Shown here: piece by piece, positions 58,724 through 59,541 of the stretch
Numbering within the stretch: position 1 is the first letter of the stretch
Layout of the letters: each line of letters opens with the position of its first letter
DNA from: Balneolaceae bacterium
Lineage (GTDB): Bacteria; Bacteroidota; Rhodothermia; Balneolales; Balneolaceae
Direction of reading: 5' to 3'
Assembly (NCBI GenBank): GCA_006969905.1
Contig: CP030887.1
Location: 992,001-1,056,000 of the forward strand
DNA length: 64,000 nucleotides
The notes under the pieces: model-generated
The model's input: the letters and a program-made list of their open reading frames with translations, nothing else
What the model was told of the DNA's origin: nothing
Database searches by the model: none
Program-made: the position numbers and the translations under genes

Positions 58724-58807
58724 GTTTATATAAAACCTGGAATCGTGACAGGTTTTCAATAAATGCTCTCAAACCTGTATCTTAAGCATGGGAAAGCCGG
58801 GTAATCG

Positions 58808-58831
58808 CCCAGCACATAACGTTCATTGTTC
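58808..58831 (+). repeat. 24-bp inverted repeat, left arm (P3 stem)
   Basis: The exact reverse complement of 59088-59111 (it starts CCCAGCACATAACG and ends TTCATTGTTC). As RNA, the two arms would form a perfect extended P3 helix closing the nuclease insert. Confidence 0.95.
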
Positions 58832-58835
58832 TTTT

Positions 58836-59096
58836 ATGTATTACTATGTGTACTTATTACAAAGCAGAAAGACAAACAAGTTTTACATTGGATATACCAA
58901 TAGTTTAAAACGAAGATTAGGACAACATAACAATGGCGAAGTACTGTCTACAAAAAGCAGTATTCCGTATGAGCTAGTCTATTTTGAAGGATTCAAAAGC
59001 AAGAAGGATGCGCTAGCCAGAGAAAAAAAGCTAAAGCATCACGGACAAGGTCTCCGAAGACTGAAAGAGAGGCTTGGGAATAGTATTGAACAATGA
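58836..59096 (+). CDS. GIY-YIG nuclease encoded in the rnpB P3 loop (86 aa)
   Basis: A small single-domain GIY-YIG protein. YYVYLLQSRKTNKFYIGYTN carries the GIY and YIG motifs (YVY and YIG), followed by the catalytic Arg in SLKRRLGQHN and the Glu in ELVYFEGFKSKKDALAREKK. The ATG at 58836 is chosen over one at 58788, which would start inside the rnpB 5' end and add an odd 16-residue leader made of RNase P sequence. The stop (59094-59096) lies within the right arm of the inverted repeat. The gene is in the rnpB sense direction, so it could be read from the same transcript. Confidence 0.92.
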   Translation: MYYYVYLLQSRKTNKFYIGYTNSLKRRLGQHNNGEVLSTKSSIPYELVYFEGFKSKKDALAREKKLKHHGQGLRRLKERLGNSIEQ

Positions 59097-59111
59097 ACGT
59101 TATGTGCTGGG
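59088..59111 (+). repeat. 24-bp inverted repeat, right arm (P3 stem)
   Basis: The perfect partner of 58808-58831. It includes the stop codon of the nuclease gene and leads directly into the conserved GAGGAAAGTCC of RNase P RNA. Confidence 0.95.
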
Positions 59112-59443
59112 AGGAAAGTCCGGACACCAACAAGCACCGCGCTTTGCGATCCTTCGGGCGAAGCAGAGGCCTGGTAATGGTGACGTTACCGGGATAGAAA
59201 GTGCAACAGAAAACAAACCGCTCGGCACATAACCTATGTGCCGAGTAAGGGTGAAAAGGTGAGGTAAGAGCTCACCGCCCCAAGGGTAACCAAGGGGGCA
59301 CGGTAAACCTCGCGGGGTGCAAGTTCATGTAAGGTAGTGTGCCGCTTGTCACAATACTACCGGGTGGAATGCACCAGATAAATGATTACCAAACCACGCC
59401 CAGGCGTGGGGAACAGAATCCGGCTTACAGGCTTTCCTGCTAT

Positions 59444-59482
59444 AAAACAAAACCCCGCCCCAAAAGGGCGGGGTTTTGTTTT
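59444..59482 (+). terminator. rho-independent terminator of rnpB
   Basis: AACCCCGCCC pairs with GGGCGGGGTT around an AAAA loop, with A- and T-rich flanks (AAAACAA/TTGTTTT). It begins soon after the 3' strand of P1. Confidence 0.93.
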
Positions 59483-59541
59483 AATGGGAGTTGCCCTTTT
59501 CATTCATGAAATGTATAATTCTTTAAACTTAAGTTGATGTA

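Follow-up and report, generated by a model that had tools for sequence, protein, structure and literature searches.

A GIY-YIG nuclease gene bounded by perfect inverted repeats lies in helix P3 of RNase P RNA and is probably a minimal mobile element

Introduction

The intervening sequences of bacterial 23S rRNA are helix extensions that are cut by RNase III, and some of them contain S23 ORFs. Rickettsia palindromic elements are known as palindromic insertions in a peripheral helix of rnpB, and to our knowledge those residing in rnpB carry no nuclease gene. Slx1, a branched-DNA nuclease, is a larger eukaryotic protein with Slx4 as its partner. Group I introns can encode GIY-YIG proteins (PMC3984707), and GIY-YIG ORFs have also been described in insertions of CPR 16S and 23S rRNA that resemble no intron, are found mainly at the apex or base of stem-loops, and were judged to lie outside homing (Tsurumaki et al. 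2024, PMC11270868). Inverted repeats, palindromes, RNase P and tRNA are not mentioned in the text of that paper.

Here we describe an insertion found in 64,000 nucleotides of a Balneolaceae genome (GCA_006969905.1, contig CP030887.1, positions 992,001 to 1,056,000; hereafter the window). As in the CPR rRNA inserts, a GIY-YIG ORF lies in a structural RNA gene with no intron fold; the host RNA, however, is RNase P RNA, and relatives occur outside CPR too. The element shares with I-TevI-type homing endonucleases the GIY-YIG domain, same-site lineages in distant hosts, and the coexistence of occupied and empty alleles, but its protein has 86 amino acids and no DNA-binding domain recognized by Pfam, and it is bounded by inverted repeats rather than housed in an intron. 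Its helix-tip location and long paired ends recall 23S rRNA intervening sequences, from which it differs in encoding a GIY-YIG nuclease, in residing in rnpB, and in having relatives in protein genes. The likeness to Rickettsia palindromic elements, as a palindromic insertion in a peripheral helix of rnpB, is one of description. Fold and conserved residues are common to the window protein and Slx1/UPF0213, although compared with Slx1 it is little more than a bare domain. With DNA transposons the element has in common its terminal inverted repeats, perfect over 24 bp, and, at the family level, several unrelated targets. A literature search on GIY-YIG genes residing in RNase P RNA, lying near tRNA or bounded by terminal inverted repeats, with most subscription journals outside its scope, returned no relevant report other than PMC11270868. 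While GIY-YIG inserts in rRNA were already known, residence in RNase P RNA and inverted repeats were thus not found in earlier reports.

Results and discussion

The element lies in helix P3 of rnpB

The interrupted type A RNase P RNA gene was located at 58787-59441 on the forward strand, with approximate outer ends, from a match to the Rfam model RF00010, from the predicted fold and from alignment with relatives. The match scores 196.9 bits over 59065-59443 (gathering score 100), and the 5′ strand was placed by P1/P2 pairing in the fold together with the alignment. Conserved region I (AGGAAAGTCCGG, 59112-59123) is intact, and from there to its 3′ end the gene aligns with uninserted relatives, which bears out an earlier note, made from the window sequence, that had recognized rnpB with its conserved regions. 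An inverted repeat with a T-rich tail (59443-59483, forward strand) follows and is a probable terminator. The source genome, complete on a single 3.49-Mb contig, contains one copy of rnpB and one of rnpA; a second intact rnpB, raised in the earlier note as a possible objection, is absent, and a backup copy is thus excluded.

The 304-bp element (58808-59111, forward strand) consists of two 24-bp inverted repeats and a 256-nt interior. The left repeat (CCCAGCACATAACGTTCATTGTTC, 58808-58831) is the 5′ arm of the P3 stem and the right repeat (59088-59111) is the 3′ arm, the two being 100% complementary over their 24 nt. Of all 24-nt words in the 64-kb window, this arm alone is followed 20-400 nt downstream by its inverted copy. 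In the Rfam consensus, the hairpin that separates P2 from GAGGAAAGUCC corresponds to P3, and at this position of rnpB relatives have a short P3, confirming the proposed insertion site. When the 660-nt RNA is folded uncut by minimum free energy (MFE), P1 (58790-58798 with 59430-59438), P2 (58800-58807 with 59383-59390) and 24 of 24 P3 pairs form, although MFE folds cannot display the P4 pseudoknot. The fold agrees with the earlier proposals of a perfect 24-bp stem and of an RNA still able to fold with the insert as a loop.

The insert encodes a compact, Slx1-like protein

The nuclease ORF (58836-59096, forward strand) comprises 86 codons and a stop, beginning 4 nt into the loop and ending 9 nt into the 3′ arm. 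Its TGA stop codon (59094-59096) falls within the P3 3′ arm, as had been noted. The ORF is complete, as claimed, but slightly exceeds the 256-nt loop that had been said to encode it. Judged from the gene layout, rnpB and the ORF are likely co-transcribed.

The predicted 86-residue protein (MYYYVYLLQS...NSIEQ) matches the Pfam GIY-YIG domain PF01541 with 61.7 bits (cut-off 22.6), and no separate DNA-binding domain was recognized by Pfam. Residues Y6, Y17, G19, R27, H31 and E63 are invariant among 13 relatives, and E63 aligns with a glutamate of Slx1. The best structural matches of an AlphaFold2 model (pLDDT 87.3, pTM 0.71) are Slx1 (7cq3, rmsd 1.4 over 77 columns, TM 0.72) and UPF0213, while I-TevI is a weak match (E about 1). 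Domain match, motif and predicted fold together place the protein in the GIY-YIG nuclease family, and the model resembles Slx1. That a nuclease of the Slx1 type might work on the palindromic ends of the element is an attractive idea.

P3 is occupied, empty or decayed among Balneolaceae

The P3 insertion is present in five Balneolaceae genomes, always with the ORF on the rnpB strand, and the window protein is 77-78% identical to proteins in the rnpB P3 of other members of the order. Besides the source genome, the occupied genomes are those of Balneola sp. EhC07 (an isolate, G007), Balneola sp. HXMU1428-10 (G006), a Gracilimonas MAG (G075), and a Balneolales MAG in which a contig end truncates the left arm (G077). 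P3 is short in G001-G005, which belong to the same genus, and in many other Balneolaceae. The rnpB bodies of G001-G003, with AGTTATAGCAATATAGTTG as P3, are 96-98% identical to those of the occupied G006 and G007, so that the two states differ between close relatives.

The inserts of G006 and G007 are identical at 304 of 304 positions, while identity is 91.5% over 6 kb of upstream flank, 97% over the rnpB body, and about 92-98% across flank measures. As a divergence of 2% would already give six differences and none is seen, recent transfer or conversion of the insert appears likely. Flank identity is only slightly raised near the insert, and the flank comparison revealed no wide co-conversion tract, which leaves homing a proposed route. 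The two genomes group as sisters over the closest 2.5 kb of flank (support 94/96), which makes a single gain in their common ancestor possible. In both, the P3 tip has been replaced without a clean split, and no target-site duplication is seen at the rnpB insertion.

In a sixth Balneolaceae genome (G009), a decayed copy has a 153-nt loop and a broken frame, while its 19-bp stem is perfect. Loss of the frame with retention of the stem had been named in the earlier note as a sign against a selected element; it is found in G009 only, purifying selection being evident in the other copies. Pairwise comparisons of P3-resident ORFs gave pN values of 0.14-0.35 with saturated pS, the identical G006/G007 pair excepted, and by this measure the ORF is under purifying selection. 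Across ten P3 copies, the arm pairs comprise 200 Watson-Crick and 8 G-U pairs, and among seven of the ten, 12 of 19 arm positions differ with pairing kept. A comparison that set G-U against A-C mismatches in the arms is suggestive only, as it applied unlike penalties to the two sets. Taken together, the pN/pS values and the arm pairing indicate that both protein and stem are kept, whereas G009 kept the stem only, a pattern consistent with a mobile gene that degenerates once it has invaded, the helix being retained by the RNA.

Related genes occupy the same helix in other phyla, and other sites

The same P3 arrangement was found in two genomes of the phylum WOR-3 (L108, L208) and in four Patescibacteria (L114, L182, L183, L196), and insertions lie in further rnpB helices, namely P16/17 (L120, L124) and P9 (L209). 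Across phyla, the rnpB-resident ORFs are on the rnpB strand in every case. In a protein tree of 49 rows, built like the other protein trees on 83 columns, the Balneolaceae and WOR-3 residents form one clade (99/92), which the Patescibacteria protein of L182 joins at 91/94. The tree thus shows one protein lineage at the same rnpB site in Balneolaceae and WOR-3, and probably in one Patescibacterium; the data are compatible with a single origin of all P3 copies but do not establish it (p-AU 0.298). Residence in rnpB is clustered on the tree, with 6 changes as compared to a mean of 12.4 on shuffling, and 0 of 500 shuffles were as low. A wider Bacteroidota sample of 394 genomes yielded just one extra match, below the P3 lineage and in another context.

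Other family members lie inside or beside 16S rRNA, 23S rRNA and tRNA genes, and four loci (L125, L198, L199, L203) are probably inserts of the CPR-rRNA type. The known targets therefore include rnpB P3, P9 and P16/17, 16S, 23S, tRNA and protein genes, a range that belongs to the family and not to the window copy. Next to tRNA genes, the GIY-YIG gene is preceded by a duplicated part of the tRNA, in many cases its 5′ half to the anticodon, and followed by the full tRNA; these loci involve tRNA-Glu (L116, L117, L122, L130, L191), tRNA-Arg (L134, L145, L150), tRNA-Asp (L131) and tRNA-Ser (L137). Several tRNA-Glu residents form a target-specific clade of their own, spanning Patescibacteria and Bacteroidales. 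Most tRNA-associated relatives have no flanking inverted repeats, and several have a duplicated tRNA 5′ half of 35-43 nt; the family as a whole may therefore follow more than one route. A phage or plasmid vehicle was rejected: a pattern scan of IMG/VR returned no relatives, none were found on plasmids, and the single phage match was weak (36%).

In three loci (L055, L057, L059), a GIY-YIG gene follows the GGAGFI motif at the start of an epimerase-like gene, and this start is repeated downstream. The source genome itself contains two more small GIY-YIG genes, each flanked by GTCATGCTGAACTTGTTTCAGCATCTGT-type palindromic repeats (G000:C1:1534842-1535066, L002; 1105837-1106061, L005).

Inverted repeats probably mark the ends of the element

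A flanking inverted repeat scoring at least 12 was found in 69 of 147 loci with related GIY-YIG genes, as compared to a 99th percentile of 11 in 526 displaced control windows; since the loci were gathered by similarity to the window protein, such counts are not unbiased frequencies. The ends are alike among loci (CCCCGCAC, CCCAGCAC, CCCCCACAC, CCCCGTTAGA), and elements with such ends in protein genes measure 281-300 bp. The interrupted protein genes, named from their translated flanks, include three tyrosine recombinase (integrase) genes, entered at GH|KSV or GHK(S/N)V|KTT, and the starts of pgk, xseB and a response-regulator gene. At the pgk and xseB starts, a possible short TGA/ATGA repeat is a candidate target-site duplication. 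As protein genes need no RNA helix, these comparisons argue that the inverted repeats belong to the element, and the P3 stem of the window is best read as its own terminal inverted repeats. The earlier description of the stem as an extended P3 accordingly stands insofar as the repeats form a peripheral helix, but similar repeats bound the relatives in protein genes.

The same evidence bears on the strongest competing explanation, in which the insert is purely a homing endonuclease gene that spreads solely between rnpB alleles and the repeats merely result from selection for pairing in P3. A single lineage that occupies the same site in distant phyla is what such a gene would produce, the tRNA-Glu residents likewise form target-specific clades, and the P3 arms retain pairing through G-U pairs and double changes. 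The similar inverted repeats of relatives in protein genes, together with solo or ORF-less palindromes of the ends in other helices of the same rnpB, nevertheless lead us to regard this explanation as unlikely. The ends recur in another helix of the same rnpB as a 15-mer in L108, an 11-mer in L208, and 17-mers of both arms in L182, while L120 and L124 have an ORF-less P3 insert with the same arms as their P16/17 element. In the window, a P12-region hairpin (CTCGGCACATAACCTATGTGCCGAG, 59221-59245, forward strand) has GCACATAAC in common with the P3 arm; the overlap is weak by shuffling (p 0.03), and the hairpin is a possible solo copy of the element end.

A minimal element that may combine homing with its own terminal repeats

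We consider it quite probable, from comparisons of sequence, that the insert is a minimal mobile GIY-YIG element, homing-like at rnpB and tolerated there since its inverted repeats form a peripheral helix. The mobility proposed in the earlier note gains from the empty and occupied states among close relatives, the identity of the insert despite diverged flanks, the occurrence at the same site in three phyla, and the related elements in other genes. In the mechanism that we propose, the nuclease would cut an rnpB allele that lacks the insert, at or near P3, and the break would be repaired via the highly conserved flanks GGGTAATCGC and GGAGGAAAGTCCGG, with an occupied allele, which could be a distant one, as the template. 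Such repair would copy the element in and replace P3, as in homing. The family could reach new sites perhaps through Slx1-like action of the nuclease on hairpins or cruciforms of the palindromic ends, and its colonization of sites bounded by inverted repeats looks, at the family level, like transposition. In the RNA, the paired ends would amount to a longer P3, a peripheral helix with which RNase P could still fold; an insert that forms a long loop on such a helix would explain its tolerance by an essential RNA. The loop would double as the nuclease mRNA. RNase III may cut the 24-bp helix, leaving RNase P RNA in two pieces joined by P1 and P2.

Such cleavage raises the comparison with 23S rRNA intervening sequences, according to which the insert would be a helix extension excised by RNase III with no ligation, its ORF being unimportant. 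The helix-tip position, the long perfect stem and the G009 copy, with its decayed ORF and intact stem, are consistent with this. In contrast, the ORF fills the loop and shows purifying selection, and related elements lie in protein genes; RNase III processing is itself compatible with a mobile element and not an alternative to it, so that an intervening sequence in this sense is improbable. Purifying selection and the likely co-transcription with rnpB could also be expected of a domesticated nuclease serving the host, for example in RNase P RNA maturation or regulation. As five genomes of the same genus (G001-G005) lack the gene, the copy in G009 is decayed, and unrelated phyla have the gene as well, we view domestication as very improbable. 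A self-splicing intron with a reduced ribozyme, suggested by the GIY-YIG proteins that group I introns can encode (PMC3984707), has next to no likelihood, and we reject group I and II introns: the window has no Rfam intron match, the ORF takes up 261 of 304 nt and leaves no space for a ribozyme, and the ends pair with each other.

RNase P RNA is essential, and in the source genome single-copy, yet in three phyla it houses a selfish-looking gene, and the insert offers a case of a protein gene encoded within a ribozyme gene. The inverted repeats are suggested to make insertion into a structured RNA harmless, a possible link between homing genes, rRNA intervening sequences and palindromic repeats. 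More tentatively, and with something short of even confidence, we propose that the family is an undescribed class of autonomous DNA transposon of ~300 bp, consisting of two palindromic ends and a bare Slx1-like GIY-YIG nuclease acting on their hairpins or cruciforms. Such a class would be preadapted to RNA genes, with RNase P RNA, tRNA, 16S and 23S as regular homes and ORF-less palindromes spreading to other helices of the same RNA. If autonomous, these would be among the smallest known mobile elements.

Palindromes and irregular copies

Dispersed solo copies in the source genome were considered and rejected, as the pattern GCACATAA...TTATGTGC occurs there only twice, both times in a terminator-like hairpin. 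These two hairpins (L154 and L155; G000:C1:2145843 and 2305632) have the tip CCCCGCACATAATTATGTGCGGGG in common with the P3 arms of relatives. The P12 region of rnpB contains an AT-rich insert of roughly 120-150 nt with no evident ORF in G001, G002, G003, G006 and G007 (L076-L078, L081, L082). The rnpB P3 of G017 (L083) is a 19-bp imperfect palindrome, AAAGCTT-rich, with a 46-nt loop too short for a nuclease gene. The P16/17 ORF of L124 has an internal TGA and is probably decaying. In the rnpB of G707 (L219), sequence from beyond P12 begins immediately after the element's right arm, which could reflect a deletion, decay of the copy or faulty assembly.
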